Positions 14,340 through 64,000 of a stretch of 64,000 nucleotides of DNA are shown in pieces. The DNA is taken from the NCBI RefSeq assembly GCF_014385165.1, contig NZ_JACRTF010000001.1:1612001-1676000 (forward strand), read 5' to 3'. The notes below the pieces were generated by a model. The model searched no databases, was not told the origin of the DNA, and was given only the letters and a program-made list of their open reading frames with translations. Both the position numbers and the translations under genes were made by a program. The stretch is from Jilunia laotingensis (GTDB lineage Bacteria > Bacteroidota > Bacteroidia > Bacteroidales > Bacteroidaceae). Within the stretch, counting starts at the first letter, position 1; the number at the start of each line of letters is the position of its first letter.

Positions 14340-14342
14340 AGC

Positions 14343-17061: not shown

Positions 17062-17101
17062 AGAGGGGCGATTATAGCCTTGTAGCCATAACCGCCCCTC
17101 T
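17062..17101 (-). terminator. Integrase terminator
   Basis: A hairpin with arms AGAGGGGCG (17062-17070) and CGCCCCTCT (17093-17101), extended by further imperfect pairing, lies just after the integrase stop. Confidence 0.7.
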
Positions 17102-17124
17102 GAATACCTGTCAATGTGAGACAT

Positions 17125-41617: not shown

Positions 41618-43561
41618 TTAAGATTTGTAGTTACGGGTCTGAACTTTTACAAATTGGTAGTTCAAATCTTCTTTGATCAATTCCGGTGCAGAGTTTTCAC
41701 CAGTGTACTTCCAGCAAGCTACGTAAGAGAAGTTTTTATCATCACGCAATGCTTCTCCTTCCGGAGTCTGGTACTCTTCGCGGAAGTGTCCGCCGCAAGA
41801 TTCTTCACGGTTCAGGGCATCACGAGCCATCAGCATACCGATTTCGATGAAGTCTGTCAACCGAAGTGCTTTTTCAAGTTCTACGTTGAGTTCGTTTACT
41901 TCACCTGGGATACGTACGTTAGTCCAGAAGTCTTTTTTCACTTCCTGGATGCCGTCCAATGCTTTCTGCAAAGATTCTTTTGTACGAGCCATACCTACGA
42001 AGTCCCACATGATATGTCCGAGTTTCTTGTGGATGGAATCAACAGAATGTTTACCGTTAACTGCTTTGATCTTCTTGATCTTATCTTTAACTTCTTTCTC
42101 GGCTGCAGCAAATTCCGGCAGGTCGGTAGAGAAGCGAGGAACCTGAATCTGGTCAGCGAGGTAGTTCTGGATAGTGTATGGCAATACGAAATATCCGTCA
42201 GCCAAACCTTGCATCAATGCAGAAGCACCCAGACGGTTAGCACCGTGGTCGGAGAAGTTACATTCACCGATTGCGAACAGACCCGGAATAGAGGTCATCA
42301 ATTCGTAGTCAACCCAGATACCACCCATTGTATAATGGATAGCCGGGAATATCATCATCGGAGTTTTATACGGATTCTCGTCAGTGATTTCTTCGTACAT
42401 GTCGAAGAGGTTACCGTAACGAGCGCGAACTACGTCTTCACCCAAGCGGTTGATAGCATATTTGAAGTCGAGGAATACGGCCAGACCGGTATTGTTCACA
42501 CCGAAACCGGCATCGCAACGTTCTTTGGCTGCACGTGATGCTACGTCACGTGGTACAAGGTTACCGAATGCGGGGTAACGGCGTTCTAGGTAGAAGTCGC
42601 GGTCTTCGTCGGGGATATCGTTCGGTTTCTTTGTTCCGGCCTGCAATGCTTTTGCATCTTCAATCTTTTTCGGAACCCAGATACGGCCATCATTACGCAG
42701 TGACTCGGACATCAATGTCAGTTTGGACTGCTTGTCACCATGGACAGGAATACAAGTCGGGTGGATTTGTGCAAAGGCAGGATTAGCAATATAAGCGCCT
42801 TTCTTGTAACATTGGATGGCAACGGAACCGTTGGAAGCCATTGCGTTAGTAGACAAGAAGAATGCGTTTCCATATCCTCCGGTGCCGATAACTACAGCGT
42901 GTGCTGCGAAGCGTTCGATTTCTCCGGTTACGAGGTTACGGGCGATGATACCACGGGCACGTCCGTCGATTATAACGAGGTCGAGCATTTCGTAACGGGT
43001 GAAAAGTTTAACAGTACCTTGTTGTACCTGACGGCTCAATGCGGAATAAGCGCCCAGCAATAACTGCTGTCCGGTTTGTCCGCGGGCATAGAATGTACGT
43101 GATACCTGTGCGCCACCGAATGAACGGTTGTCAAGTGTACCACCGTATTCGCGTGCGAAAGGAACACCTTGCGCAACACATTGGTCGATGATGGCGTTGG
43201 CAACTTCTGCCAAACGATAAACGTTGGCTTCACGTGCGCGGTAATCACCACCTTTGATTGTATCGTAGAAAAGACGGTATACTGAGTCACCGTCGTTTTG
43301 ATAATTCTTAGCAGCGTTGATACCACCCTGTGCTGCGATAGAGTGCGCGCGACGGGGAGAATCTTGGATACAGAAGTTGAACACTCTGAATCCCATTTCA
43401 CCTAGAGAAGCGGCAGCAGATGCGCCGGCAAGTCCGGTACCTACCACGATGATGTCAAGACGACGTTTGTTGGCAGGATTAACAAGTTTTTGGTGAGCTT
43501 TATAGTTACTCCATTTTTCGGCTAACTGGCCTTCAGGAATTTTAGAATCTATTTGAGTCAT
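41618..43561 (-). CDS. frdA: Fumarate reductase/succinate dehydrogenase flavoprotein subunit
   Basis: This 647-aa catalytic subunit has the FAD-binding [18 protein letters not shown] (about residues 37-54), the covalent flavin region [14 protein letters not shown], a substrate region including the HPTCIP segment and a C-terminal helical domain. The length is typical of the B-type (menaquinone-linked) enzymes found in Bacteroidota, longer than E. coli FrdA. It interconverts fumarate and succinate; succinate is a main fermentation product of Bacteroides. Confidence 0.95.
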
Positions 43562-48284: not shown

Positions 48285-50158
48285 TTTTCTGCTATGTCTT
48301 CTTCTATAACCAGATTATCAATAATAAAGTTTTGTCGTTCCATTGTATTCTTGCCCATGTAGAATTCCAACAACTCCTTGACGAGGTCTGTCTTACGTAG
48401 TGAAACCTGTTCCAGACGCATGTCTTTGCCAATGAAGTGCTTAAACTCGTCGGGGGATATCTCTCCCAGACCTTTAAATCGGGTGATCTCCGGATTAGGA
48501 CTCAATTCACGAATGGCATTGACCCGTTCTTCTTCACTGTAGCAATAGAGAGTTTTTTTCTTGTTGCGTACTCGGAAAAGTGGTGTTTGTAGGATATAAA
48601 CATGCCCTTTCTTTATCAGATCAGGGAAGAATTGCAAGAAGAAAGTGATCAGCAACAGGCGAATGTGCATTCCGTCTACATCGGCATCGGTGGCCACAAT
48701 TACTTTGTTGTAGCGTAGACCCTCTATGCCGTCTTCAATGTTAAGTGCCGCCTGTAGCAGATTGAACTCTTCATTCTCATAAACCACTTTTTTGGTCAGT
48801 CCGAAAGAGTTGAGGGGTTTACCACGCAAGCTGAATACAGCTTGTGTGTTTACATCGCGGCTTTTGGTGATGGAGCCGCTTGCAGAGTCACCCTCCGTAA
48901 TGAAAATGCAGGAATCCTCTTCAAGTTCCTTGCCCTTTGAATCGTTCAGATGGATCCGGCAATCACGGAGCTTGCGGTTGTGCAAATTTGCTTTTTTCGC
49001 ACGTTCGCGAGCCAGTTTGGTAACACCGGCTATGGCTTTACGTTCTTTTTCGGAATCCTGTATCTTTTGTTGCATGATCTCGGCAACGTCTGCATGTTTA
49101 TGCAGGTAATTGTCCAGTTCCTGTTTGATGAAGTCGCCTACGAACTTGTTTACCGTGATTCCTCCGGGAGACATATTGGTAGATCCCAGTTTGATCTTCG
49201 TCTGACTTTCAAACATCGGCTCTTCCACGTTAACGGCAATGGCAGCTACCAGTCCGTTGCGGATATCGGCATAATCCATACTCTTGTTATAGAACTCTTT
49301 GATCGTGCGGGCTATATGTTCTTTGAAGGCGCTTTGATGAGTTCCTCCTTGGGATGTATGTTGTCCGTTGACAAAGGAGTAGTACTCTTCACCATACTGT
49401 CCGGTGTGCGTAAAGGCGATTTCGATATCTTCTCCTTTGAGGTGAATGATCGGATAAAGTCCTACCGCAGTCATATTGTCATTCAGCAAGTCTACCAGTC
49501 CATTGCGTGACAAGATGCGCTGTCCGTTGTAAATGATCGCCAGACCTGTATTGAGATAGGTATAGTTCCGGAGCATTGTCTCAATAAACTCGGGTCGGAA
49601 ACTATAATTAAGGAACAAGGTATTGTCCGGTTCAAAGAAGATGTATGTACCATTACCTTCTTCTGTGTCGTGCGTTTCGTCTTTCAACAGGTTTCCTTTT
49701 GAGAAAGTGGCTGTTCGCACTTTTCCGTCACGGTAACTGCGTACTTCGAAACTTGAACTCAACGCATTGACAGCTTTTACACCGACTCCGTTCAGACCGA
49801 CACTTTTTTTGAAGGCTTTACTGTCGTACTTGCCTCCTGTATTTAGCATACTGACGGCCTCGATCAGTTTTCCTTGCGGGATGCCTCGTCCATAGTCGCG
49901 TACACTTACACGCAGATTCTCTTCGACAGTAATCTCTATTTTCTTGCCGGCTTGCATTTTGAACTCGTCGATACTGTTATCAATCACCTCTTTCAGCAAT
50001 ACATAGATTCCGTCTTCGGCATGTGCCCCGTCTCCCAGTTTACCGATATACATACCGGGACGTGTACGGACATGTTCCATGTCGCTCAGATGGCGGATGT
50101 TGTCGTCAGTGTATTCTACAGAATTATTGTTTACGGGTATCAGCTCGTTCTCTTCCAT
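48281..50158 (-). CDS. parE: DNA topoisomerase IV subunit B
   Basis: This is a type II topoisomerase ATPase subunit. The N-terminal GHKL ATPase has [13 protein letters not shown] (catalytic Glu, Mg-binding Asn) and [15 protein letters not shown]; the C-terminal part has the Toprim motif TEGDSASGS with DVDGMHIR. The 625-aa length and the start [14 protein letters not shown] favour the ParE/topoisomerase IV branch over GyrB. It decatenates daughter chromosomes together with ParC, which is not in this window. Confidence 0.9.
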
Positions 50159-50166
50159 TTTAGTAA

Positions 50167-51303
50167 TTATTCAATCTTTTTTGTAAACGCACGACGGCGT
50201 TTATGTTGTTCCGTTTTGAAATAATCCCACTGTGCTTGAACTTTACCGTTCATTTCCAGTTCCGGGTTGCTCTCTGCAAATATAAAACCTAATTTTTGAT
50301 AAACCGGAATTAAATCAGAAAATAACAATGCGTTAACACCTTTGTTCTGATATTCGGGTTTTACGGCTACAAGCAATAAATCGAGCATTTTCGCCCGTCT
50401 TTTCATGAACAAAGCCTTTAGCAGATAGAACCATCCGAATGGCAGCAGGCGGCCGTGTGACTTTTGCAAAGCTTCTGCCAGTGAAGGCATTGAAACACCT
50501 ACGGCTATCAGTTGATCTTCGGCATCGGTAATGAGTGTCACCATGCGCAGGTCGAGAATCGGAAGATACATCTTGACATACTGGTTGATTTGCCGTTGTG
50601 AGAGAGCCGAATATCCATATAACGGACTGTAAGCTTCGTTCATTAGTTTGAATATCTCTTGTCCGTAGTCTTTTGCTATTTTCTTTGCCGAAGTATATTT
50701 TTTTATCTTAAGGTTATACTTTCGCTGAATCAAGTCCGAAATACGTTGATGCTTTTCAGGGATGGCGTCGGGGATGTAGATTTTAAATTCTACCCAATCG
50801 GCATCTTTCCGGAACCCCAACTTCTCCATGTGTTCGGGGTAGTAAGGAAAATTGTAGATAGTAGCCATGGTGCTGAGTTGGTCGAATCCTTCTATCAGCA
50901 TTCCTTCTGCGTCGAAGTCGGTGAAGCCGAGCGGACCTTGAATGTCCGTCATACCCCGTTTTTTCCCCCATTCTTCTACAGTTTTGATTAAAGCGTCCGA
51001 TACCTCCAGATCGTCAATAAAGTCAATCCACCCGAAACGTACATCCTTTTTGTTCCAAGTTTCGTTGGCCCGTTTGTTGATGATGGCTGCTACACGTCCA
51101 ACTATTTTCCCATCTTTGTAAGCTAAGAAGTAGTCTGCTTCGCAAAACTCGAAAGCTGCGTTTTTCTTCTTGTTGAATGTGTTGAGCATGTCATCATAGA
51201 GATCGGGCACTGAGTAGGGATTCTTTTTATACATCTCATAATTGAAACGGATGAATTTGTCCAACTCTTTCCTGCAAGAGACTTGTTTGATTGTAATAGC
51301 CAT
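50167..51303 (-). CDS. GNAT-fold acyltransferase
   Basis: This 378-aa protein is a GNAT-type N-acetyltransferase-like protein. The C-terminal region has the acyl-CoA-binding stretch [20 protein letters not shown], the R/Q-x-x-G/A-like motif A. The N-terminal half ([13 protein letters not shown] at about residue 165) belongs to a broadly conserved family without a known substrate. It lies 9 bp upstream of parE and probably shares its transcript. A -7 element TATCTTTG (51327-51334, minus strand) precedes it. Confidence 0.8.
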
Positions 51304-51326
51304 ATTTATGTATTTATTTGAGGATG

Positions 51327-51411
51327 CAAAGATACGTGATAATCTTCAAATTACAACGTGTAAGGAATAAAAAAACTCTCGTTATCGTTGTGCTATCTTC
51401 TTGAATTGCAG
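51327..51411 (-). repeat. Diverged direct duplication, copy 1
   Basis: This stretch is about 70% similar to 54424-54505 in the same orientation. Each copy holds the -7 element of a leftward gene and the end of an AraC-type HTH coding remnant. The words CTATCTTCTTGAATTGCAGA and its counterpart are almost the same. Confidence 0.6.
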
Positions 51412-51633
51412 AGGGGTCATTCCGGTTTGTTTGAGGAAGATCTGGTGGAAGGTAGAAATAGAATTAAAGCCTGAACGCTCGGCTATTTCGTCAATAGTCA
51501 TAGTTGGAGGTCTTCTGTTTGGCCTTTTCTTAATTCTTACTTTTAACATTGTTGATTTGCTATTAGGGTTTGGTATATGTCCCTGCACGATCATATTATG
51601 TTTGCATGATAAAAACATATATTCTTTCGGCAA
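51382..51633 (-). pseudogene. AraC-type HTH C-terminal fragment
   Basis: The last 40 residues (MTIDEIAERSGFNSISTFHQ followed by the TGMTPLQFKK type end) are the second HTH of an AraC protein. The preceding 43 residues have no family similarity. The 83-aa frame is far too short for an AraC protein and no first HTH is present. It is a remnant, probably of a regulator or a one-component system whose rest has been lost, and a second decayed copy of its end lies at 54482-54540. Confidence 0.65.
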
Positions 51634-51839
51634 AGGAATACGTATTTAACACACATTTAAAATACTATTTTTGCGAAGAATAAAAAGTGATGCTTCTATC
51701 TATAAATATAATTTATATGTTTCTGATAATTAATTGTTTGTCTTGATGTTCTTTGGAGAGATTAATTTTGGGAGGAGGTTCATTCAGGCAACGTTCTCTT
51801 GATAGTTCCGTTTGTTTTCTTTTATGCTTGTTAGTTTGT

Positions 51840-51990
51840 TAACTTCATCATTTATACTCTGTTTCCCTTTGATATATGAAATGTTTGTTATAACTTGCCA
51901 ACGAGTTTATTAGAGATGCTTTAAATCGGATTTTGTTGTTAAATATAGTCATCTATGAAAAACTTATTTTATTATTATCGTTGTTGACTT
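51840..51990 (+). repeat. Decayed copy of the start region of the TPR regulator gene
   Basis: This region is similar to 54960-55120, including a 15-of-15 identical TTTGTTATAACTTGC (51884-51898 and 55004-55018) and an ATG 57 bp after it. The frame from that ATG (51955) stops after ten codons, while a shifted frame encodes LILLLSLLTCSYS, matching the lipoprotein signal at 55076. Confidence 0.6.
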
Positions 51991-52274
51991 GTTCTTACTC
52001 TTTGTTCGGAAACGATTTATCTTTCCAACCGAGAACTCTCTCTGTTTTATGTTTGTGGCGGAGCATTGCCTGTGTTTGCGGTTTCATTCAAGCAGGTATT
52101 TTGCAGGGTGCTTTGAAGAATCAAGGAATAGAATCTTTTTTAAAGAATGAAGTGGTTTCTTGTGTGTTTGCCAACTCCCCAGGTTTTCAGATTGAGGTAT
52201 ACGTTTTCAAATCAGATTATGAAAGAGCGAAAGGAATACTAATCAAGGGATTTCCTGATTTGGTAAAAGAGTAA
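51933..52274 (+). CDS. DUF2007-like small protein with damaged N-terminus
   Basis: The last 60 residues (LQGALKNQGIESFLKNEVVS, then SDYERAKGIL) match DUF2007, a small alpha/beta domain found as a stand-alone putative signalling protein. The first 35 residues (EKLILLLSLLTCSYS) come from a shifted frame over the decayed start of a TPR lipoprotein gene. The only start is TTG. A real DUF2007 protein would begin nearer residue 40, so the gene is either using a later, unusual start or is a pseudogene. The protein has no partner genes nearby. Confidence 0.4.
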   Translation: MLLNIVIYEKLILLLSLLTCSYSLFGNDLSFQPRTLSVLCLWRSIACVCGFIQAGILQGALKNQGIESFLKNEVVSCVFANSPGFQIEVYVFKSDYERAKGILIKGFPDLVKE

Positions 52275-52416
52275 TCGTTGAAAAAGATTTTGAAATATGA
52301 ATGATGGAAAGCAGGTGTGCCAAAATGCCTTTCAATATAAAAATTAACCTCGTTTCAAATGTGGTAGTGACGGGGAGAATCTTTAAAAAGGAATATTTGA
52401 CACACTCACTTTGATC

Positions 52417-54366
52417 TTATTGTATTACGCCTGCCCATCCACCGTTTCGTACCATTTGGATGGTTATCTGCGATTTGCTGTCTACGCGGCTTTCTCTTTT
52501 TTTATAATCCATCGCTTGGCGGTCCGCATTGATGCCGTCTTCAAAAGCGGTTAATGTGAAAGACTGCCCTTCGGGCAAGAAACTGAGGTCGATGTTTACC
52601 GTACGCCCCTCGTTGTTAGTTATGCCCCCGATAAACCATTTCTCGCCTTTTCTACGGGCAATAACCACTCCTTCACCTACTTCTGCATAGAGAACTTTCG
52701 TTTCATCCCAGGTGACGGGAACACTGGAAATAAATTCAGTACAGGGAAGTTCGCGATAGTAATATACCGGATTGTCAGCCAGCATTTGCAACCCGCTTTC
52801 GAAAACCACGAACAGAGCCATCTGGTAAGCCCGTGTACCCGATCCCATGGCATTGGCACGTGTCGAACGGTTATCTTCCGGTTGGGCGGAAATCATAGAT
52901 CCCGGAGTAAAGTCCATCGGGCCGACTGCGTTGCGCATGAAAGGTAGATAGATGGTATTGGACGGTTTGCAATTGCCCCCCTGTTCCATGCCCAGAACAC
53001 CTTCGTAAGAGAGTATGTTCGGATATTTACGTTCCAGTCCGGCAGGCTTGAATGCACCGTGGAAGTCTACAAACAATTTATGTTTTGCCGCTTCTTTGGC
53101 TACCCGTTCGTAATAATTGACCATCCATTGATCGCTACGATCCATGAAGTCTATTTTTACACCTGCTATTCCCCAATCAGCGAATGTCTTGAAGAGGTCA
53201 AAGTTATTCTCAACCGTTAGCCACGTCAGCCATAACACGATTTTTACATTACGCTCTTTTCCGTACTGAATCAGTTCCGCCAAGTCGATGGTGGGATTCG
53301 GGGTATATGGGTCGCGCGTACTCTTTGCCCATCCTTCATCCATGATGATGTAAGGGATACCGAATTTCGAAGCAAAGTCAATGTAGTATTTGTATGAATC
53401 CATATTATATCCGGAACGGAAATCCACGCCGTACAGACGTGCATCGTGCCACCATTCCCAGCTCACTTGTCCCGGTTTGATCCAACTGTAATCTTCAAGC
53501 ACACATGGTGAAGAGAGGCTGTACACCATTTCATTTTCCACCAACTCTTTGTCCTCCTTCGAGATGACCATCATTCTCCACGGGAAACTGCGCTTCCCGT
53601 CCGTCTTGGCGATGTAATCAGCTTCTTTTAGAATCTTTAGGCTACGGTCTCCGTCATCACCGAATTCCAAGGGAACCTTCGGAAACAGAGATTGCATACC
53701 GTTCGTGCCGGTACTTTTCAGGAACATGCAAGGATAATCGTAGAGGTCGGCTTCCGAGATGAGGATCTTATATGCCTTGTCGGTTTCCAATAAGACAGGC
53801 AGATAACTCATTCGGTCTGTCTTTTTATACTCTTTTGTTTTGACATGGGTATACGGGTATTCGTAGGAGGTTTTGAAGCCATCGGGTTGAGACAGATGGG
53901 CGGTGTAGTCGGCAGGAAAATTAAGAACGAAGTCTTCTCCCATCACGATGTTTTCATCTTTCTTATCTGTAATGAAGCGGTAAGCCATTCCGTTGTCGAA
54001 GACACGGAACTCCACTGCATAATTACCGGCAAAATTGAGTCTGAGCGTGTTGCAATGATTCTTTACAACCGCGTTCTTGAACGGGATTTCACGCTTGATG
54101 CTTTCGTTGATCACTCCTTTTTTGGTGTTGCGGAGTTTGGGATTGTTGCCTAATGTTTCATTGGCAAGTTGCAGGTTCAGATAGCAGTCCTTTACTATCA
54201 AATCGTCATCATAAGACACTGAGTAATAGATTTTGTCTTTAATGTCGATGGATACTTGTATTTCTCCATTGGGAGATTTTACATCGATGGCTTTCGCTGC
54301 AAGCGTGTTGTTACCTGCCAGAAAGAACAGGGAAATCAGTGTGAAAAATAGTGTAGGTGTTTTCAT
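52417..54366 (-). CDS. GH97 glycoside hydrolase, predicted retaining alpha-galactosidase
   Basis: This 649-aa secreted enzyme (signal peptide residues 1-24) has the GH97 layout: N-terminal beta-sandwich to about residue 290, (beta/alpha)8 barrel to about 560 and a C-terminal beta domain. The barrel motif GVKIDFMDR puts Asp406 at the place of the nucleophile of the retaining GH97 branch (Asp415 in BtGH97b), and Glu461 in LGMEQ fits the acid/base position. The inverting SusB-type enzymes have Glu there instead. It would release alpha-linked galactose from dietary or mucin glycans in the periplasm. It has no SusC/D partner and stands between duplicated segments. Confidence 0.88.
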   Translation of the reverse strand: MKTPTLFFTLISLFFLAGNNTLAAKAIDVKSPNGEIQVSIDIKDKIYYSVSYDDDLIVKDCYLNLQLANETLGNNPKLRNTKKGVINESIKREIPFKNAVVKNHCNTLRLNFAGNYAVEFRVFDNGMAYRFITDKKDENIVMGEDFVLNFPADYTAHLSQPDGFKTSYEYPYTHVKTKEYKKTDRMSYLPVLLETDKAYKILISEADLYDYPCMFLKSTGTNGMQSLFPKVPLEFGDDGDRSLKILKEADYIAKTDGKRSFPWRMMVISKEDKELVENEMVYSLSSPCVLEDYSWIKPGQVSWEWWHDARLYGVDFRSGYNMDSYKYYIDFASKFGIPYIIMDEGWAKSTRDPYTPNPTIDLAELIQYGKERNVKIVLWLTWLTVENNFDLFKTFADWGIAGVKIDFMDRSDQWMVNYYERVAKEAAKHKLFVDFHGAFKPAGLERKYPNILSYEGVLGMEQGGNCKPSNTIYLPFMRNAVGPMDFTPGSMISAQPEDNRSTRANAMGSGTRAYQMALFVVFESGLQMLADNPVYYYRELPCTEFISSVPVTWDETKVLYAEVGEGVVIARRKGEKWFIGGITNNEGRTVNIDLSFLPEGQSFTLTAFEDGINADRQAMDYKKRESRVDSKSQITIQMVRNGGWAGVIQ

Positions 54367-54744: not shown

Positions 54745-55003
54745 TAACGAGGGATTCATTCCTGACCAAGAAATGATAGCATTTCCGCCTGCCGATAGTG
54801 TAAAATATAATTCCTTAATCCCACATTGAAGGACGATGGGAGAATCCTCATTCTGTCGTTACATTGACGAATGTTTTCGGGGATTTAGCATCATCGCTCT
54901 ATACATGATTTTAAGGTGAGCTTTTAGTTAGGGATATACGGAAAGTGGCTGGGTGCAAACGAGAACTGGATTTTTCTTATTCTTTCTTTTGATGATTGGA
55001 ATA

Positions 55004-55018
55004 TTTGTTATAACTTGC
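55004..55018 (+). promoter_or_regulatory. Conserved TTTGTTATAACTTGC element
   Basis: This contains the palindrome GTTATAAC and is fully identical to 51884-51898, at the same distance (57-58 bp) before an ATG. It is a likely promoter or operator part. Confidence 0.45.
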
Positions 55019-55075
55019 AGACTTATTTATAGATAAGTTCCACTAATCGGGATTTGGTATTAAAAACAATCAACT

Positions 55076-56863
55076 ATGAGAAATACTCTCCTTTTGTTAT
55101 CATTGATAATGTTTTTTTCCTGTTCTCATCCCGAAAATAGTTTATTGCCGGTATTGTCACGAGCCGATTTGTTATTGCAGATAGGATATGCCGACAGCGC
55201 CCTGATTCTTTTAGACTCCTTTCCTGTTGATGATTTGACTACTGTTTCCCTTCAGGCACGCCATGCTTTGTTACTGACTCAGGCAATGGATAAGAATTAT
55301 ATCACTCTTACCGGTGACTCATTGATACGGATAGCAGTTAAGTATTATGATTCCACCAATGATTTGTCTTCCCGGGCAAAAGCCCATTATTATTGGGGTC
55401 GCGTCCATCAAGATATGGGCGATGTCGAAGGAACCGTACGCGAGTTCCTGACAGCCATGCCATTGGCAAAAAAAGCAAAAGAACATACTTTAATGTGTTT
55501 ATTGCAGGGGAATTTGGGCTATCTTTGTTGGGAACACGGATTATTGGATGAAGCTGATTCTTTATATAAAGAAGAAATTCAATTGACTGAATTGCATAGA
55601 GATTCATTGCATTGGGCTATGGCTTTAGCTATGCGTGGAGATATCTGCATGGAAAGAGGTGAAGAATATTATGCCGAAGCAGAAAGCTGTTTGAAACAAG
55701 CTCTCATGATTGTAAAAGCTTCTTTTGGGATGCATTTGCATGAAGAAAGCGAAATAGTGCGATCATTAGGATACCTTTATGAACGCATGTCCGATTTCTC
55801 AAAAACTACTTACTTTATTAACTATTATATGACTCTTCAACCTTATCCGGAATCTATGTATGAATGTTATTTGTTATTAGGAAGTACATATTATAAACAA
55901 GAGAAGCGTGACTCTGCAAAAGTATATCTAGATAAATGTTTATCATCTTCCAGTTATAGTATAAAAGAAGGAGCCTATATGCGTTTAGCCGACATAGCCC
56001 GTGCAGAAGGAAAGGAAACGGATGCTGTCTATTATGAAAAATGCAGCTTGGTTTATGAAGATTCGGTGAGGCAACTTGAAAAACCGGTTGAAATAGTAAC
56101 TCTGTCCAAGGATATTCTATACCGTCAAGCAGCTCGAAAGTATGCTTCGTCTTCTCTTTTATATCAATATTGTATAGGAGGATTAGTAATCTTGTTGCTT
56201 TTAGCAATTGTTTTATTTACATATAAACGCAAATATAAGAAGCACGAAGAGGTACGTTTGCTAAAAGAGCATAAGTCAACTCTTCTTCTGCTTGAGAAAT
56301 TTCAACAAGAGATCGATACTAAAGAAAAAGAAATGCTTTCATTGAAACGGGAGTGTGATGAATACGATAATGGCAGGCTTAGACAAACTCAACTTATCAG
56401 TGCTTATGAAGAATTATTGATGCAAAAAAATGAGATTTGTATACAGTTGGAAAATCAACGTGTCAAGGACACGCTCATTATAAATCAACTGCAAAAGAAG
56501 AATTTCATCAGTTTGATAGAGAACACTCCCATCTATCATAGATTACTCGAACTGATAAAAGTAAATAAAGAGAATCCCGATCTGAAGGAGAAATTAAATG
56601 AGAAAGAATGGGAAGAACTGGAAACAGAGATTGGAAAGCTGTTTCCCGAATTTATACGGAATTTGAGTGCTAAATATACACTGTTATTAATGGATGATAT
56701 TCATTTCTGTTGTTTGGTGAGGTTTGGTTTCAAAAAAGCGGAGATTCAATACATTCTTTCTCGCACCCTTGATGCGGTTTATAAATACGAAAAGGCTCTA
56801 AAAGGGCGGATGCAGATTAGTAAAGATGTGAAGTTAGATGAGCTTCTAAAAAGGATGGAATAG
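55076..56863 (+). CDS. TPR lipoprotein regulator with transmembrane segment and coiled coil
   Basis: This 595-aa protein has a lipoprotein signal (FFSC at residue 16), about six tetratricopeptide-type helical repeats (residues 25-340), one transmembrane helix (GGLVILLLLAIVLFTY, about residue 370), a coiled coil and a C-terminal domain that ends in a possible HTH (FGFKKAEIQYILSRTLDAVYKYE). This layout is common in Bacteroides regulators next to peptide or polysaccharide loci, in which an outside sensor is joined to a cytoplasmic DNA-binding domain. It lies 164 bp upstream of the DUF3244 gene and is a candidate regulator of the lanthipeptide cluster. Confidence 0.75.
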   Translation: MRNTLLLLSLIMFFSCSHPENSLLPVLSRADLLLQIGYADSALILLDSFPVDDLTTVSLQARHALLLTQAMDKNYITLTGDSLIRIAVKYYDSTNDLSSRAKAHYYWGRVHQDMGDVEGTVREFLTAMPLAKKAKEHTLMCLLQGNLGYLCWEHGLLDEADSLYKEEIQLTELHRDSLHWAMALAMRGDICMERGEEYYAEAESCLKQALMIVKASFGMHLHEESEIVRSLGYLYERMSDFSKTTYFINYYMTLQPYPESMYECYLLLGSTYYKQEKRDSAKVYLDKCLSSSSYSIKEGAYMRLADIARAEGKETDAVYYEKCSLVYEDSVRQLEKPVEIVTLSKDILYRQAARKYASSSLLYQYCIGGLVILLLLAIVLFTYKRKYKKHEEVRLLKEHKSTLLLLEKFQQEIDTKEKEMLSLKRECDEYDNGRLRQTQLISAYEELLMQKNEICIQLENQRVKDTLIINQLQKKNFISLIENTPIYHRLLELIKVNKENPDLKEKLNEKEWEELETEIGKLFPEFIRNLSAKYTLLLMDDIHFCCLVRFGFKKAEIQYILSRTLDAVYKYEKALKGRMQISKDVKLDELLKRME

Positions 56864-57027
56864 TTCATGAAAGCGAGAAATTCCAAATAAATGTAATTAC
56901 CTTCTATTGTAAATCAGATGATTAGCTCTTTTTAACAGAAAGCTCTAATACTATTATAATGCAAAATGCGCTCTTTTGTGACAGCCAACAAATTAAAGAA
57001 TTTTTAATTAATTAATATTTAGATGCT

Positions 57028-57444
57028 ATGAAACAGTTATTGTTAATTATTATTGTTCTTGTAAGTTTATTATCAGGTCAATCGGTTTATGCACAAAGTG
57101 AATGGAACGGTTCTTTTGTGGTGAATAAAAAAGAAATTCCGTTGAAGAATATTCATCCGGGAACTAGTACTGGTGGTAAGGGGAAAGTTCAACATAGTCC
57201 TGCACAATTCCCCATCACGGCTTTTATTTATGGTGAAACACTCACCGTAGATTTCCTTTCTTTTTTGGAAGAAGCAATTACTATTACGATTACTAATGCT
57301 GACAAAGGTGAGATTATCTATTCGGAAAGCTATACTTCGTTAGGTTGTATAGTGATCCAACTAGGTTTGGTAGAAGATGGTACGTGCTATCAACTAGAGA
57401 TCAAATTTGGCTCTTGGGTGCTGGACGGAGAGTTCATGATGTAA
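57028..57444 (+). CDS. DUF3244 secreted protein
   Basis: This 138-aa protein has a signal peptide (residues 1-22, SVYAQ) and a single beta-sandwich with TITITNADKGEIIYSESYTS, the hallmark of DUF3244. Such proteins are found downstream of TPR regulators in Bacteroides and next to small secreted peptides; function unknown. It sits between the regulator and the lanthipeptide precursor and may belong to the same regulon. Confidence 0.8.
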   Translation: MKQLLLIIIVLVSLLSGQSVYAQSEWNGSFVVNKKEIPLKNIHPGTSTGGKGKVQHSPAQFPITAFIYGETLTVDFLSFLEEAITITITNADKGEIIYSESYTSLGCIVIQLGLVEDGTCYQLEIKFGSWVLDGEFMM

Positions 57445-57740
57445 AACATAGTATATTCATTTATAGATGATGTGTGAAATTAATTCTTTTAAAAATCTTA
57501 AGTCATGAGTATGATTTTCAAATTAGGAAAAAACAACTTTAGTTTGTTTACTGTGCCTATTTCTTATATTCAATTCTGATAGACACAGTTTATTCTTAAA
57601 AATGTATGGGAAAGAAATTGGAATGTTAAAGATGGAAAGGATTATCCTTGTCTTTTCTACGTGTGTGAATTGTTGCAAGGCTAATTTTCTAAAAAAATGA
57701 GTTTGTTAATCTTGTAGTTTGTAACGAAATTCTTATTAAT
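57445..57740. other. Intergenic region before the precursor gene
   Basis: This is about 300 bp of AT-rich DNA. Two very short frames (24 and 22 codons, starting at 57505 and 57631) lack family signals and I do not call them. The promoter of the precursor gene should be here, but no exact -7 match was seen. Confidence 0.5.
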
Positions 57741-57983
57741 ATGGAAAAGAAGAAGCTTTCTTTGAAAAAAGAAACTATTACTCAGTTGGATGATATGTCT
57801 CAAATTAGAGGAGGTGGTACTTGGGATGTACTCAAAGATACTGTTACTATTGTTGCAAGTACCGTTTTAGGAGCGGTAACATGTGCTGTTGGTACAGTAG
57901 TTATGGCCACAGCTGAACATTGCCCTACAGCACAAACAGATTGTAATACATGTGTATGTGAAACTAGGTGGTGTATGTCATAA
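57741..57983 (+). CDS. Class I lanthipeptide precursor (LanA-like)
   Basis: This 80-aa precursor has the leader KKKLSLKKETITQLDDMSQI followed by RGGG, the Bacteroidota lanthipeptide-type leader (KKLxLxKETI) with a double-Gly cleavage site for a C39 peptidase. If cut after Gly26 the core is 54 aa with six Cys (residues 48, 61, 68, 71, 73, 78) and 13 Ser/Thr, most of them before or among the Cys. The first half of the core is hydrophobic (TVTIVASTVLGAVTCAVGTVV), the second is Cys-rich. LanC and the split LanB genes follow directly. Ring pattern and activity cannot be predicted. Confidence 0.88.
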   Translation: MEKKKLSLKKETITQLDDMSQIRGGGTWDVLKDTVTIVASTVLGAVTCAVGTVVMATAEHCPTAQTDCNTCVCETRWCMS

Positions 57984-57993
57984 GGAAAGTGAA

Positions 57994-58031
57994 AATAAGT
58001 ATGCAAGATAATACTTTCTTGCATACTTATT
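57994..58031 (+). terminator. Stem-loop between precursor and modification genes
   Basis: The arms AATAAGTATGCAAGA and its complement TCTTGCATACTTATT (57994-58008, 58017-58031) lie 10 bp after the precursor. There is no strong U run, so it is probably an attenuator or an mRNA stabiliser that gives more precursor than enzyme transcript. Confidence 0.65.
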
Positions 58032-58110
58032 TCAATCAGGATGGTATTAGATAAAATAGCCATAACTGTCGTTTCTTTTTCTGTAACTTTCTTACGAAAA
58101 GAAGAGATTA

Positions 58111-59292
58111 ATGAAAGAACTAATAGAACAAAAAATAACTGAGATTGCTAATGTTTTATTAGCAGTTAATTTAAAAAAAGAGTTTTCTAATGATTTATCA
58201 CTTTTATCAGGAGAATTAGGAGCGCTAATCTTTTTAAAATATTATTCTATTATTTATGATCAAGTAAATATAATCAAAACATTAGAAAAGCGATTCGACA
58301 TTTATTTCGATAATTTAGTTAGTCATGTTTTACAAATATCTTATTGCAATGGGATTTCGGGTATTTTATATGGCTTGAATTTATTAGATAAAAGTATGTC
58401 TTTGAATATAGATTATAATGATGTTGAAAAGCATTATAAAAAATATTTATTTAGAATGATGAAATGGGGATTTAATAACTGTAACTATGATTATTTTCAT
58501 GGGTCTTTAGGCATTTTATTGGGTCAAATGGATGATGTGAAATTTGTAAAAGCAGCTATAAGAAGTTTAGAACAGGCGGCAGTTATCGATGGTGAAAAAA
58601 TTAAATGGTATTCTTTTATTGATTTTAAAGAAAAGCGGGGCATTAATATTTCCTTGTCTCATGGAATGTCAAGTTTAGTAATTATATTGTGTCGAATTTA
58701 TGAAAAAAACATTGAATCTAAATCTGTTCAAACATTAATTACGGGAGCGGTTAATTATATTCTTTCTCAGAGAATAGATTATAATATTTATGGTTGTTTT
58801 TTTCCAATACAATCGTTGGAAAGCGATACATTTCTTCAGAAAAGTAGATTAGCTTGGTGCTATGGTGATTTGGGAATAGCTTTAGCATTGTGGGAAGCTG
58901 GAAAGGTTCTGCAAAATAGTTTCTGGAAATCTGTTTCATTAAATATAATGCTTGAATCTTGTACGAGGAGATCAATTGATGATACTTTGATAAAAGATGC
59001 AGGAATTTGTCATGGTAGTTCTGGATTAGCAATGATTTTTTATTATATGTATAATGAAACTCGAAACTTTATTTTCATGGAAACATGTAATTATTGGATA
59101 TCAGTTACATTAAAAATGGCTAGTTTTAAAGATGGATTGGCTGGGTATAAAACATGGAATGGTAATTATAAAAATGATTGTTCATTACTTACAGGTATTT
59201 CTGGAATAGGGTTGATGTTGTTGACTGTGGTTTCAAACAATCCAATATGTTTTGAATGGAATCATTTCTTTCTACTTCTAAATAAACACTGA
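58111..59292 (+). CDS. Lanthionine synthetase C family protein (LanC)
   Basis: This cyclase would add Cys thiols to dehydroalanine or dehydrobutyrine to form thioether rings. The alpha/alpha-barrel shows the zinc ligands Cys250 (AWCYGDLG) and Cys300-His301 (GICHGSSGLA), and the earlier SLSHGMSS. The 393-aa length is normal for stand-alone LanC. The end is one base before the LanB start (59294). Codon use is very AT-rich compared with genes outside the cluster. Confidence 0.9.
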   Translation: MKELIEQKITEIANVLLAVNLKKEFSNDLSLLSGELGALIFLKYYSIIYDQVNIIKTLEKRFDIYFDNLVSHVLQISYCNGISGILYGLNLLDKSMSLNIDYNDVEKHYKKYLFRMMKWGFNNCNYDYFHGSLGILLGQMDDVKFVKAAIRSLEQAAVIDGEKIKWYSFIDFKEKRGINISLSHGMSSLVIILCRIYEKNIESKSVQTLITGAVNYILSQRIDYNIYGCFFPIQSLESDTFLQKSRLAWCYGDLGIALALWEAGKVLQNSFWKSVSLNIMLESCTRRSIDDTLIKDAGICHGSSGLAMIFYYMYNETRNFIFMETCNYWISVTLKMASFKDGLAGYKTWNGNYKNDCSLLTGISGIGLMLLTVVSNNPICFEWNHFFLLLNKH

Positions 59293-59293
59293 T

Positions 59294-61447
59294 ATGGATA
59301 AACATAATTACACTGCATTTGATAAATTCATATTACGAACTCCTTTGATCCCCTATTCTGATATAGGGAAAGAAGAGCAATTGATTGATTCTGCCTTATT
59401 TAGTGAAGCTATTTTCTTAGCATCGAATGATTTATTAGATTCTAAAAAAAAATATTACGATAAAAAGAAAGATAAAAAACTCTCTGAATCCTATTTAAAA
59501 TACTTTATTAGAGCTTGCACTAGATGTACTCCATTTGGTTTATTTGCGGGATGTTCTGTTGGTAGTATTAGTGAAAATAGTCAAATTGAATTGGTAGATT
59601 CTCATTTCTATACAAGACAAACACGATTGGATATGCAATTTCTATGTGAGCTTATAAAAAAAATAGAGAATATTCATGATGTTCAAATTCAATTACTATA
59701 CTACCCTAATGATTCATTATATAGAATTGCGGATAAATATAGATATATAGAATATATAGATGTGAATTTTCTAAAACGATATCAAATTTCATCTGTTCAA
59801 TTTGAGGATTACATTTCATTGATTATCGAGAAAGCACGTTATGGCGCTAATATATATAGCTTGTCAAAAACCTTGGTGGATAGTGATATTACTTATGAAG
59901 AGGCTGAAAATTTTGTTTATGAACTAATAAATTCACAATTATTGAAAAGTGAATTAGAACCTTGTACAATTGGTAATGATATTTTTGAGTCATTATTAGA
60001 AAAACTATCAAAATTAGAGAATGTTCTGATACTGGATGATTTAAATGTAATAAAGAGTCTCCTCGAAAAAATAAATAGAACGGATATTGGAGATTCCATT
60101 CAATATTATCATGATATTATAAAAATTATTAACCGACTTGAAATCAACTATAATTCTAAATATCTATTTCAAACCGACTTATTTAAACCAACGAAAGTTG
60201 CAACTATTTCTTCTGAAATCGTTAATGATATTAATAATGTTATTCAATTTCTTGGTAGAATATCTATTCAAAAGAAAAATGTGGATATGGAAACATTTAA
60301 ACAAAAATTCATGGAAAGATATGATGGGCAAGAAGTTCCATTGCAAGATATTATGGATAGTGAATTGGGAATTGGATATCCTGTGAGGTCTGGGCATAGT
60401 GTTAGCCCTTTAGTTGATGATTTAATTCTGCCTTCTTTAACTGAAAATTTTAGAAATGATATTTTTAGTTCTATTGATCAAATTCTTATTAGGAAATATA
60501 CGGAATGTTTGGCTAGTGGAAAAGATGTAATTTTTTTAGATAATAAAGATTTTGAAAGGCTTAATTCTGAGATAGAAATTCCAGATACCATTAGTGTGTT
60601 GTGTAATATTTTCAACGATAAAGCTAGGTCGGTTTATATTAAATCTATTAGTAACTATAGTAGTGCAGCATGTTTATTAGGACGATTTTGCTATATTAAT
60701 TCCTCAATAAAAAAAATGGCAAAAGATATTTGTGATAAAGAAGCTGAATTGCGTACAAATCTGATTTTAGTAGAAATATCTCATTTACCAGAATCTAGAA
60801 TAGGTAATATCATGTCCCGACCTGATTTAAGAAATTACACATTACATTATTTATCTAACTGTAATGATATGAATGATAATAATATATCAGTATCGGATTT
60901 ACTTTTGTCTATAAAAAATGGTAAACTGATATTGAGATCAAAAAAATATAATAAAGAAATTATTCCTAAATTAACATGTGCATATAATTACTCTTTAAGT
61001 ACATTACCAGTTTTTCGTTTTTTATGTGATTTTCAGAATGGAGATAATCCTATATTTGATATGAATCTTCATTGGAATAATATATTTCATAATGTGGATT
61101 ATTTGCCAAGAATACAATATAAGAATGTTGTTTTAATTAGAAAAAGATGGATAATTCGAGAATCTGATATTGCTGATTGTAGGCAAATAGAAGATGGTAA
61201 ACTTTTAGAGAAAATAAAAGTAATTCTTCAAAATAAAAAAATATCTCAAAAGGTCATAATACCAGATTATGATAATGAATTATATGTTGATTTTTATATA
61301 ATTAGTCATGTTAAGTTATTTCTTTCTATTCTTATTAAGCGTAAAACTGTATTACTTGAAGAATTTTTGTTTGACGAGGATCACTCTATTGTGAAATCAG
61401 GGAAGTCTGTATTTACTAATGAATTTATTTTCATGTTTCATAAATAA
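59294..61447 (+). CDS. Lantibiotic dehydratase, glutamylation part (LanB N-terminal protein)
   Basis: This 717-aa protein matches Lant_dehydr_N. The diagnostic segment RCTPFGLFAGCSVG is at residues 77-90. It would use glutamyl-tRNA to glutamylate Ser/Thr in the precursor. The elimination domain is missing and is encoded by the next gene, so the dehydratase is split, as in thiopeptide pathways and the pinensin cluster of another Bacteroidota. The next gene begins 9 bp after its stop. Confidence 0.9.
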   Translation: MDKHNYTAFDKFILRTPLIPYSDIGKEEQLIDSALFSEAIFLASNDLLDSKKKYYDKKKDKKLSESYLKYFIRACTRCTPFGLFAGCSVGSISENSQIELVDSHFYTRQTRLDMQFLCELIKKIENIHDVQIQLLYYPNDSLYRIADKYRYIEYIDVNFLKRYQISSVQFEDYISLIIEKARYGANIYSLSKTLVDSDITYEEAENFVYELINSQLLKSELEPCTIGNDIFESLLEKLSKLENVLILDDLNVIKSLLEKINRTDIGDSIQYYHDIIKIINRLEINYNSKYLFQTDLFKPTKVATISSEIVNDINNVIQFLGRISIQKKNVDMETFKQKFMERYDGQEVPLQDIMDSELGIGYPVRSGHSVSPLVDDLILPSLTENFRNDIFSSIDQILIRKYTECLASGKDVIFLDNKDFERLNSEIEIPDTISVLCNIFNDKARSVYIKSISNYSSAACLLGRFCYINSSIKKMAKDICDKEAELRTNLILVEISHLPESRIGNIMSRPDLRNYTLHYLSNCNDMNDNNISVSDLLLSIKNGKLILRSKKYNKEIIPKLTCAYNYSLSTLPVFRFLCDFQNGDNPIFDMNLHWNNIFHNVDYLPRIQYKNVVLIRKRWIIRESDIADCRQIEDGKLLEKIKVILQNKKISQKVIIPDYDNELYVDFYIISHVKLFLSILIKRKTVLLEEFLFDEDHSIVKSGKSVFTNEFIFMFHK

Positions 61448-61456
61448 ACAACAGGT

Positions 61457-62329
61457 ATGGTTAAAAGATTATTTATTCCAGGTAGCCAATGGATTTATTT
61501 TAAAATATATACAGGTGAACAAACTGCGGATAATATTTTGATTGAAAACGTAATGCCTTTCATTCATACACTTTATAATGAGGGTGTGATTATGGGCTCT
61601 TTCTTTGTTAGATATTCAGATCCTTTGTTTCATTTAAGATTAAGATTGTATGTTGATAAATTAGAGTCTTATGCAACTATTTTCAGTAACCTACTAGTCT
61701 TTTTAGAACCCTGTTTGAATAATGGTTCTATTTTTAGAATAATGTGTGATACTTATAATCGTGAGCTTGAGCGTTATGGCAATGAATTAATAAAGTATGT
61801 AGAGGAAATATTTTGTATTGACAGCTGGTCTATATTGTCTCTGTTGTCAATATTGCAGAAATATGATGAAGATTTAAGAGAGTATGAACGTTGGAATTTA
61901 TCTTTGTTACTTATTGATGATCTTTTAAATGTTTTTGATTTTGATGGCAAATCAAAAAAACAATATTTATGTATGCTGTCGGAACAGTTGAAACTTGAAC
62001 ATGGATTTATTAATCATAAATTTACCAAGCAATTAAATGATAAATATAGGACTAATAAGTCAAATGTCTGGAGAACTATGGATAGGGAAAATAGTGTTGT
62101 ATATATTAAGTATTCGGACATTCTGAACAGAAGGAAAAATGATTTGGAAGAAATAACAAAGAAATTAAATAAGGAAGAATTACAATGGATTTCTGATTAT
62201 TCACTATCTAGTTTAATCCATATGACAATGAATCGCTTCTTTAAATCGAAGAATCGACTTCATGAAATGGTAATTTATTTCTTTCTATACAAGTATTACG
62301 ATTCTTATTTGGCTAGATTTGAGATATAG
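61457..62329 (+). CDS. Lantibiotic dehydratase, elimination part (LanB C-terminal/SpaB_C-like protein)
   Basis: This 290-aa protein is of the Lant_dehydr_C (thiopeptide-type bacteriocin) family. The opening GSQWIYFKIYTG, the GSFFVRYSDPLFHLRLRL strand with conserved Arg and Asp, and HMTMNRFF near the end are characteristic. It would remove glutamate from the glutamylated precursor to give dehydro amino acids. With the upstream protein it makes one dehydratase. Confidence 0.88.
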   Translation: MVKRLFIPGSQWIYFKIYTGEQTADNILIENVMPFIHTLYNEGVIMGSFFVRYSDPLFHLRLRLYVDKLESYATIFSNLLVFLEPCLNNGSIFRIMCDTYNRELERYGNELIKYVEEIFCIDSWSILSLLSILQKYDEDLREYERWNLSLLLIDDLLNVFDFDGKSKKQYLCMLSEQLKLEHGFINHKFTKQLNDKYRTNKSNVWRTMDRENSVVYIKYSDILNRRKNDLEEITKKLNKEELQWISDYSLSSLIHMTMNRFFKSKNRLHEMVIYFFLYKYYDSYLARFEI

Positions 62330-62383
62330 TTGATTGGTTTTACTTGACGAAAAGTCGTATTATTAATTTAAAAAATATAAGTT

Positions 62384-62713
62384 ATGGCAATTTACAAAAT
62401 TATGCTAATTAGTTTGTTAATGGCATCGTATTCCTTGTTGCTAAGTCGATGGAATGTTCAGTATATTAATAAATTTCATTACAAAGATAAATTTATTGTT
62501 TGGAAAAGAATATTGCGTGTCAATATAGTTAAAAATGCCCTTGACTTTATTTTTCGAATGATATTAGAATATTTTTGGTTTGATTTATTGTTCACTATCG
62601 CTGAGTATGTGACGAATAATTTCATTTATAGGTTGTCGTTTGCGATTACATTTAGGATACTAATTATAACCATTATTCACTTAGTCATTCGTTATAAAAG
62701 TGTTCGTGATTGA
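62384..62713 (+). CDS. Small membrane protein in the lanthipeptide cluster
   Basis: This 109-aa protein has an N-terminal hydrophobic helix (MLISLLMASYSLLL), a charged middle and two further hydrophobic segments (about residues 62-76 and 84-104). No family was recognised. Small membrane proteins in such clusters often give self-protection, so immunity is the first guess, but it could be a transport helper. It starts 55 bp after the elimination gene and has the same AT-rich composition. Confidence 0.5.
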   Translation: MAIYKIMLISLLMASYSLLLSRWNVQYINKFHYKDKFIVWKRILRVNIVKNALDFIFRMILEYFWFDLLFTIAEYVTNNFIYRLSFAITFRILIITIIHLVIRYKSVRD

Positions 62714-62749
62714 GGAAGGTAATAACGATTAGATTAAAGATAATCTATG

Positions 62750-63098
62750 AAATATTTTTTTTTAGTAGCCAACATGGTGTGATGAATTGTGAACCAACTT
62801 GTTTGCAAATGATTATTGTCTACTATAGGAAGAAATATTCTCTTATTTAGGTTACGTGATTTGTGTGGGGCTTTTCCGGATGATGCTTATTTGAACTATA
62901 TTAACAAGGGGCAGTGGACGTTTAAAATTATACGATGGCAAAACAGAGAGGGGCATTTGAAAGATCGCTTTGATATTATTCGTTTGGAGGATGGGAGAGG
63001 CTGAATGCTTTCTATAATTGTCCATTCCCGATTAACGTGGAGGAACATTCGGCTGTGTATTTGAAAAATGGTGATAAAAAAGTACATAAGTTATATTA
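62750..63098 (+). pseudogene. Decayed C39-peptidase remnant
   Basis: The frame QHGVMNCEPTCLQMIIVYYR, followed by KKYSL and a stop at about 62848, is a worn copy of the start of the exporter's C39 domain (QQLDAMDCGPTCLRMIAKYY). Further on, open stretches such as FKIIRWQNREGHLKDRFDII and LNAFYNCPFPINVEEHSAVY lie in different frames and have no known family. The region has stops and shifts and is not a working gene. Confidence 0.6.
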
Positions 63099-63101
63099 AT
63101 A

Positions 63102-64000
63102 ATGAAAGTTCTAGTGATGGAGATAAAGAATAATTTCCCCTTTTACCAACAACTTGATGCCATGGACTGTGGCCCAACCTGCCTGCGAATGATCGCTAAG
63201 TACTACGGCAAAAGCTATTCTTTGCAGACACTCCGTGCGCGTTCCTTCCTTTCCCGTGATGGGGTATCATTGTTGGGAATTAGTGATGCTGCCGAATCCA
63301 TCGGTTTTCGTACTGTCGGAGCAAAATCCACTTTGCAGGATTTGGTTGAAAACGTTCCGTTACCCTGTATCCTACATTGGAACCAGAATCATTTTGTGGT
63401 ATGTTACCGTATAAGGAAAACTAGAAAAGGGATACGTTTTTACATAGCCGATCCGGGAAGCCAATTGGTGGTATATGAAGAGAAGGCATTTGCAAAGTGT
63501 TGGTTGTCTATCAAAGGAGAAGTAGTGTGTCGGGGAGTGTTATTGGCTTTAGAGCCGGGGGTAGAATTTTATGATCGGGAAGATGAACCGGAGGAAAAAG
63601 GAAAGAAAAGCCTGTGGTTTTTTGCTCGTTATCTATCTCCATATAAATCGCAATTGGTACAACTGGCATTGGGCATGTTGACAGTAAGCGTTCTACAACT
63701 TATCTTTCCGTTTCTAACGCAGTCATTGGTTGATGTCGGCATACGGGATGGTAATATAAGTTTTATTACTTTGATTCTTGTTGCCCAACTTGTGATTTTC
63801 GTTTCACAACTTTCGGTGGAGTTTATTCGCAGCTGGATACTGCTTCATATGAATACCCGCATTAATATCTCATTGATATCCGATTTCCTTGCCAAATTGA
63901 TGAAACTTCCCATACGTTTTTTTGATACAAAAATGTTGGGGGACATCATGCAGCGTATTGGCGATCACAACCGCATCGAGTCTTTCCTTACAGGATCGTC
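63102..64000 (+). CDS. C39-peptidase ABC exporter (LanT-like), 3' end cut off
   Basis: This is the N-terminal part of a peptidase-containing ABC transporter that removes the leader after double Gly and exports the peptide. The C39 domain has Cys in MDCGPTCLRM, His in NQNHFVVCYRI and Asp in YIADPGS. From about residue 190 the transmembrane domain begins (LVQLALGMLTVSVLQLIFPF) and FFDTKMLGDIMQRIGDHNRI shows the usual intracellular loop. The frame is open to the window end. Start ATG at 63102; an in-frame ATG at 63117 is equally possible and fits relatives better. Its codon use is less AT-rich than the modification genes, so it may have a different origin. Confidence 0.9.
   Translation, partial: MKVLVMEIKNNFPFYQQLDAMDCGPTCLRMIAKYYGKSYSLQTLRARSFLSRDGVSLLGISDAAESIGFRTVGAKSTLQDLVENVPLPCILHWNQNHFVVCYRIRKTRKGIRFYIADPGSQLVVYEEKAFAKCWLSIKGEVVCRGVLLALEPGVEFYDREDEPEEKGKKSLWFFARYLSPYKSQLVQLALGMLTVSVLQLIFPFLTQSLVDVGIRDGNISFITLILVAQLVIFVSQLSVEFIRSWILLHMNTRINISLISDFLAKLMKLPIRFFDTKMLGDIMQRIGDHNRIESFLTGS

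Follow-up and report, generated by a model that had tools for sequence, protein, structure and literature searches.

A class I lanthipeptide cluster with a split dehydratase in Bacteroides, read as a low-GC cassette docked between a TPR-DUF3244 gene pair and a resident exporter

Class I lanthipeptide precursors of Bacteroidota are described, in the accessible part of Walker et al. 2020 (PMC7268733), as having an LxLxKx5L leader that in many cases ends in a double glycine (GG); a gene for a C39 protease is often found close to them. The same part names the pinensin cluster as an example of a split LanB. Loci with LanB and LanC were reported from two B. fragilis strains in 2016 (PMC4922554, accessible text), and according to the available portion of PMC5410138, Alistipes accounted for 14% and Bacteroides for 3.8% of the contigs that encode LanB. 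In contrast, a survey published in 2023, which applied BAGEL4 to 1,136 Bacteroidales genomes, gives LanB as completely absent (PMC10352776, in the part available). Here we analyze a stretch of 64,000 nucleotides (contig NZ_JACRTF010000001.1; "the window", numbered from its first position), which ends in genes for a precursor (LanA), a LanC cyclase, a LanB glutamylation protein, a separate LanB elimination protein (LanE), a small orphan membrane protein (mem109) and a C39 exporter, preceded by a TPR gene and a DUF3244 gene. We consider it probable (roughly 0.8) that these genes form a class I lanthipeptide pathway, with a cassette of low guanine plus cytosine (GC) content docked into a resident locus of TPR gene, DUF3244 gene and exporter, where it occupies the cargo slot. 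The docked combination has so far been observed in this window only.

An earlier reading of the letters of the window (the original prediction) had proposed a class I lanthipeptide cluster in which the dehydratase is split and a C39 peptidase removes the leader, and protein families, catalytic residues and synteny with relatives agree with it. The six genes that it named were found in the order and at the positions given, on the plus strand, by open reading frame (ORF), Pfam and NCBIfam analysis (Table 1). All genes of the locus lie on this strand, and the six named genes are tightly spaced. The LanB split consists of two ORFs, with a stop at 61447 and the next start at 61457. The pathway had also been called complete. 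Completeness is not established because the exporter is visible only in its first 299 residues, which include the C39 Cys, His and Asp motifs and the transmembrane domain, before the window cuts it at 64000.

Alignments with the nisin enzymes, whose aligned NisB and NisC residues we take to be the catalytic or mutationally tested ones, suggest that the enzymes are intact. LanB residues R73, R77, T79, D113, D295 and R464 align with NisB R83, R87, T89, D121, D299 and R464 (6/6). In LanC, D127, H184, R246, C250, C300 and H301 are invariant across 10 aligned sequences (the window's included), with C250, C300 and H301 as predicted zinc ligands; its HG, WCYG and CHG motifs match up with NisC in the PDB alignment, and TIGR03897 (LanM) matches it partially. 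LanE keeps five of five residues (R61, R63, E103, R106 and H255), all of them invariant across 11 aligned sequences; their NisB counterparts, with numbers counted by hand along the alignment, are R784, R786, E823, R826 and H961. The original prediction had named loss of catalytic residues in the LanB and LanC alignments as an objection to itself. All aligned residues are present and, since the catalytic positions of LanB, LanC and LanE are retained, the objection does not apply.

The NCBIfam name of LanE, 'thiopeptide-type bacteriocin biosynthesis protein', would fit a separate PF14028 protein that performs thiopeptide-type ring formation, with a product that is no lanthipeptide. We regard this as very improbable, given that LanE is the sole PF14028 protein among the nine window proteins scanned, that YcaO had no match among these nine, that the residues aligned with the NisB elimination residues are invariant and that a LanC is present.

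Relatives of the enzymes are arranged in a similar way. A protein search with LanB found 1,779 relatives (7,992 candidates scored); the nearest, beside an identical copy, is 58% identical and lies on a 4.5-kilobase (kb) contig. A scan of one genome per species gave 439 LanB relatives, of which the best 80 (top identity 43%) were fetched. The following counts refer to these 80 loci, and are lower bounds because many contigs are short. The elimination protein is encoded near LanB in 78, a LanC is detectable with the window's LanC in 47, and a C39 exporter lies on the same strand within 8 kb in 19, directly after the elimination protein in 15. Twenty Bacteroidales LanB loci were studied further, 17 of them new beside the 80. 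Among these 17, the elimination protein is directly followed by a C39 exporter in nine, and one more (L190) shows a piece of a C39 exporter at the contig end. PF04738 was detected in 3 of 157 genomes of the genus, in 27 of 393 of the order and in none of 14 control genomes. The published absence of LanB thus looks like a limit of the tool, in light of these 27 genomes and of the older papers.

Outside bacterial genomes, LanB relatives were distant: seven LanB loci on viral contigs reached at best 34% identity, and so did the plasmid search among the matches listed (40 of 42 records). As a separate observation on precursor diversity in Bacteroidales, ten different lanthipeptide-type precursors lie beside LanB in L185 (4491-7432) and six in L186 (5522-7091), with nearly identical leaders and diverse cores.

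The precursor scores above the cut-off of 22 bits of NF038153, the NCBIfam leader model 'class I lanthipeptide'. Its leader, of the L1a type, fits LxLxKx5L exactly (L6 S L8 K K10 ETITQ L16), with the GG at G24-G25. C39 peptidases cleave after GG in a canonical register that follows a rule on positions -4 and -7, and relative to a cut after G25 these are Ile and Met. If the register is canonical, the predicted cut after G25 would leave a core of 55 amino acids (aa; Gly26-Ser80), one more than the 54 originally given. The core contains 13 Ser/Thr residues and six Cys (core positions 23, 36, 43, 46, 48 and 53), five of the Cys within the last 20 residues.

A long core with a hydrophobic first half and a Cys-rich second half had been predicted, and is borne out by hydropathy and the distribution of Cys. 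Over 21 residues the LanA core reaches a mean Kyte-Doolittle value of 2.05, the highest among the 109 precursors compared (LanA and 108 distinct ORFs selected by leader pattern from LanB loci, uncurated), the next being 1.63. The filter behind these 108 is similar to our filter for GG-leader ORFs, which is loose: it gave 86 uncurated ORFs in 49 of the 80 loci, at least one of them spurious (L066, 97 aa). Cores of the relatives have a median length of 40 aa. By eye, a hydrophobic stretch after the GG is also visible in L078, L189, L009 and L176.

These features raise the question of where rings would form. Rings might be confined to the Cys-rich C-terminal part (about core 36-55), with core residues from about 9 to 33 forming a mostly unmodified membrane-spanning helix. 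The hydropathy maximum and the clustered Cys speak for this, whereas core 9-33 holds seven Ser/Thr and one Cys right after a Thr, which are normal substrates, and the choice of sites by LanB is unreadable from sequence. We consider this arrangement possible, if somewhat doubtful.

The nisin-type lipid II motif SxxxCTP(G/S)C was not seen in the 55-aa core on reading by eye; the accessible part of PMC7268733 gives it as the core motif of the lipid II binders nisin and gallidermin. A protein search with LanA, a check proposed in the original prediction, returned a single relative, 98% identical and on another contig, by a method that depends on shared exact words, such that distant LanA relatives may escape it. 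No LanA relatives were found in viral contigs. Likewise, mem109 has one relative, 99% identical and on another contig; as a guess, it is a candidate immunity protein or export helper. The stretch between precursor and LanC gene, the usual place of an attenuator, folds into a strong hairpin (-23.6 kcal/mol, z -6.4, none of 200 shuffles equally good), which may act as an attenuator or as an element of mRNA processing or stability.

The second part of our reading concerns the surroundings of the cluster. By frame we mean, in a definition made for this analysis, a TPR gene, a DUF3244 gene, GG-peptide cargo and a C39 exporter, in this order and on one strand. Positions 55076-64000 of the window show this arrangement and were compared with the loci L202-L218. 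The TPR protein has, as read from its sequence, a lipobox-like N-terminus, TPR repeats, one transmembrane-like segment and possibly a cytosolic C-terminal part; the NCBIfam model BT3442_fam matches it far below cut-off. The ORF at 57028 is not a lan gene; its PF11589 match identifies a DUF3244 protein. Searched with the DUF3244 family profile, PDB gave 3sd2 (E 3e-13) and 3d33 (E 0.002), and by family the protein is predicted to have an Ig-like fold.

In 22 Bacteroides genomes, out of 73 with an exporter match, 63 C39 exporters related to the window's were compared. For 23 of them, the 20 kb upstream contain a same-strand DUF3244 gene (for 21, the nearest 10 kb do), whereas the 20 kb downstream contain one for none of the 63. 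Seventeen of the 23 loci were fetched (L202-L218), and in 17/17 a TPR-type gene precedes the DUF3244 gene, a TPR match being defined as a blastp hit with E up to 0.01 against the window's TPR protein (22-36% identity). The slot between DUF3244 and exporter often contains GG-leader peptides in these 17 loci. Other cargo, in nine proteins scanned from four loci, consists of VKOR/C39/thioredoxin proteins or a radical-SAM enzyme. In one more locus, L146, a DUF3244 gene (PF11589 E 1e-8) accompanies a radical-SAM cassette and an exporter; for the gene before DUF3244, a LuxR-type domain falls slightly short of the cut-off and a TPR match is absent. When loci were instead fetched by similarity to the TPR protein, the DUF3244 gene came next in 9 of 12; it is missing from L230, where there is no room, and from L221 and L229, where there is. 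A C39 exporter is present in L203 and L204, two further TPR matches from that search.

The accessible part of PMC10352776 mentions TPR genes in two of nine clusters. By title, neither of the two papers found to name DUF3244 deals with peptide export, and the text of the one searched has DUF3244 in an expression table only.

The cassette and its frame differ in composition. GC content is 28.0% for LanC, 26.6% for LanB, 28.3% for LanE and 27.6% for mem109, versus 42.4% for the exporter and 44.2% over the window's first 54 kb; LanA (38.3%), the TPR gene (36.8%) and the DUF3244 gene (36.9%) are intermediate. Between mem109 and the exporter lies a relic of the start of a C39 peptidase domain, in which 25-37 residues are 49-60% identical to the starts of C39 exporters and are followed by a stop. 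The GC content around it (62714-62845) is cassette-like, at 28.0%. The simplest reading would be that the cassette's own exporter was lost and a resident exporter took over. The GC break, the relic and the frame are additions to the original prediction. As a side observation, the interval between relic and exporter (62846-63101) has 37% GC and a broken coding look, and 62849-63001 gave one weak match (E 0.003; 157 genomes) to the end of a 748-aa protein, DUF262-like as named by eye.

The kinship of the exporter points in the same direction. Four Bacteroides genomes encode exporters that share 76% identity with it. In a tree built from 93 exporters, of which 34 count as LanB-linked (no more than 6 kb from a LanB), the window's exporter falls in a well-supported set of 19 rows of Bacteroides exporters that includes none of the 34 LanB-linked rows; its closest pairing within the set is not well supported. 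The label 'not LanB-linked' hinges on the 6-kb rule, since one member of the set, from B. fragilis G001, has a LanB cluster at a distance of about 21 kb. A plasmid search with 57500-64000 returned 8 records, every match within the exporter, and a phage search with the exporter returned 18 records, the best 49% identical.

An alternative is that the exporter arrived with the cassette as one unit, in which case the GC gap would reflect constraint on exporters and the relic would be a chance tandem fragment. Of 19 other lan loci that have an exporter, 10 likewise show an exporter GC that exceeds that of LanB by 3-13 points. In L176 (genome G008, same genus) the gap is 20.6 points (exporter 62.8%, LanB 42.2%, LanE 38.3%), and a C39 exporter straight after the elimination protein is a common arrangement, as counted above. 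The supported clade free of LanB-linked members, the exporter GC near that of the host and the cassette-like GC of the relic argue against this alternative, which we consider unlikely. L176 itself is ambiguous: it may be a second low-GC cassette next to a host-like exporter, or it may indicate that gaps of this size are usual. Since other lan loci show exporter GC above that of LanB, the GC break by itself is insufficient evidence for docking.

The GC gaps at these other loci thus also weigh against docking, and further observations do the same. Among the 12 loci approached from the TPR side, only one has a C39 exporter within the fetched stretch (three stretches were too short); with nine of the 12 carrying DUF3244, it is the TPR-DUF3244 pair that forms the firm unit, with the exporter as one context among others. 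A profile built from the frames gave no convincing DUF3244 in 97 other distinct LanB loci (101 scanned, four repeats), and the three other Bacteroides genomes found with LanB had no DUF3244 match near it. Docking therefore rests on one locus. No genome with an empty site was found: the best relative is 88% identical (41618-43561, 301 genomes), and for parts of 50100-54366 the best identity is 79-80% (158 genomes), with no genome close enough for an empty-site comparison. The ATPase domain, HlyD and the outer-membrane partner would lie outside the visible stretch, beyond 64000. Finally, product, dehydration and export are predictions from the genes. Two DUF3244 profile hits in the LanB loci (E 2e-4), located inside reading frames of 448-466 aa, were set aside.

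That the cluster is instead decaying and makes nothing is a reading to which we give little weight. It could draw on the broken C39 exporter start and on the single near-identical relative each of LanA and mem109. However, all four biosynthetic genes and the visible part of the exporter have open reading frames that retain their catalytic residues, and the copies of LanA and mem109 have been kept on other contigs.

Table 1. Features of the lanthipeptide locus and its frame (positions in the window)
Feature	Position	Strand	Evidence and remarks
TPR regulator-like gene, 595 aa	55076..56863	+	TPR_12 E 4e-9; first gene of frame
DUF3244 protein, 138 aa	57028..57444	+	PF11589 E 5e-12; signal-peptide-like N-terminus
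LanA precursor, 80 aa	57741..57983	+	NF038153 24.7 bits; leader M1-G25, core G26-S80 (predicted)
Strong hairpin stretch, LanA/LanC intergenic	57978..58056	+	Folding versus shuffles
LanC cyclase, 393 aa, LanM-like kind	58111..59292	+	PF05147 (LANC_like) E 1e-35
LanB glutamylation protein, 717 aa	59294..61447	+	PF04738 (Lant_dehydr_N) E 2e-120
LanB elimination protein (LanE), 290 aa	61457..62329	+	PF14028 (Lant_dehydr_C) E 2e-58, TIGR03891 E 4e-58
mem109, orphan membrane protein, 109 aa	62384..62713	+	No family above cut-off (Pfam, NCBIfam)
Relic of C39 peptidase domain start	62764..62847 (about)	+	Stop at 62848; PF03412 E 0.02, under cut-off
C39 peptidase ABC exporter (peptidase-containing ATP-binding cassette transporter, PCAT), first 299 aa	63102..64000	+	PF03412 E 5e-30, ABC_membrane E 1e-14

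Together, the above observations are consistent with the following course of events. LanB would transfer glutamate from glutamyl-tRNA onto Ser/Thr of the core, LanE would remove it to give dehydroalanine or dehydrobutyrine, and LanC would link as many as six Cys to these residues. The exporter's C39 domain would then cleave after the GG at 24-25, and the product would be exported. As to origin, a low-GC LanC-LanB-LanE cassette may have come from outside and lost its own C39 exporter except for the start. It would now occupy the cargo slot between the resident TPR-DUF3244 pair and the resident exporter, which would have taken over leader removal, export and perhaps control. The TPR protein may act as the controlling element. 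The product is likely to be antagonistic or signalling.

More tentatively, and below even odds, a Bacteroides chassis made up of a transmembrane TPR regulator, a secreted Ig-like DUF3244 protein and a C39 exporter might swap disulfide, radical-SAM and thioether cassettes horizontally. In the window it would have captured a foreign cassette whose own exporter was replaced, and the product would be a membrane-spanning lanthipeptide of a new structural type. In practical terms, lanthipeptides of Bacteroides are little characterized and this cluster is small enough to be expressed as a whole. The exporter frame also indicates where to search for further Bacteroides peptide systems, namely upstream of DUF3244-linked C39 exporters.

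Promoter patterns added little to the question of control. The -33/-7 pattern of Bacteroides promoters occurs 7 times in the window (chance mean 2.7) and not within 55000-64000, and a scan of the region for sigma-70-type promoters gave 53 promoter-like sites, with 42.8 expected, and was uninformative.

Elsewhere in the window, the 88% match at 41618-43561, a gene read by eye as frdA-like, is to a Bacteroides fragilis genome and bears out the predicted Bacteroides host. A gene for a CfxA-family class A beta-lactamase (10480-11445; NF033100, 711 bits, cut-off 625) lies beside an IS5-family transposase and a tyrosine-recombinase gene, together with genes that by eye are mobilization- and replication-like; this stretch (9182-18243) is an integrated mobile element. 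It is flanked by large repeat proteins of 859 and 983 aa (3947-6526 and 20096-23047) with partial matches, below cut-off, to one common NCBIfam model, as might result from duplication or splitting of a surface-protein locus.

Comparison with known systems places the cluster within a described type. By leader, enzymes and C39 peptidase it matches, in the sequence features compared, the class I type published for Bacteroidota, and this type, together with the earlier Bacteroides reports of LanB, means that the pathway type is not new. Neither the hydrophobic core nor the placement in a TPR-DUF3244-exporter locus was found in literature searches, which mostly covered listings of papers. As for the new compound group that the original prediction thought possible, the core has a single relative, 98% identical, in the protein search, whereas enzymes, leader and layout belong to the published type.

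Among the closest known systems, the B. fragilis LanB/LanC loci (PMC4922554, accessible text; L076 and L142) share with the window the Bacteroides host and the LanA-LanC-LanB-LanE block. Their LanB is 36% identical to the window's. L142 differs by an S41 peptidase gene between precursor and LanC, and in B. fragilis an exporter related to the window's is located about 21 kb from the lan block, beyond other genes for ribosomally synthesized and post-translationally modified peptides. As observed separately, L142/L141 (Bacteroides fragilis Q1F2) is a composite region of such genes; it contains a lanthipeptide block, a second GG peptide and glycosyltransferase-like genes, and ends with a C39 exporter and HlyD.

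Pinensins are made by Chitinophaga. Their cluster resembles the window's in coming from Bacteroidota and in encoding separate glutamylation and elimination proteins, a likeness by description only, drawn from the accessible part of its source; the antifungal activity of pinensins carries no information on the window's product. For nisin (NisB/NisC, PDB 4wd9 and 2g02), the catalytic residues of dehydratase and cyclase align with the window's, and NisB is one polypeptide whereas the window's LanB is split. Bacteroides GG-peptide loci (PMC10352776, in the part available; L202-L218) have PCAT, TPR and DUF3244 genes and often a GG peptide, as in the window, but their cargo, where scanned, is of VKOR/thioredoxin type or radical SAM rather than lanthipeptide enzymes. 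With the Bacteroidota class I type (Walker et al. 2020, PMC7268733, in its accessible part) the window shares leader, GG, C39 peptidase, split LanB and LanM-like LanC, while the core sequence, its highly hydrophobic first half, the upstream TPR-DUF3244 pair and the resident-type exporter are its own.

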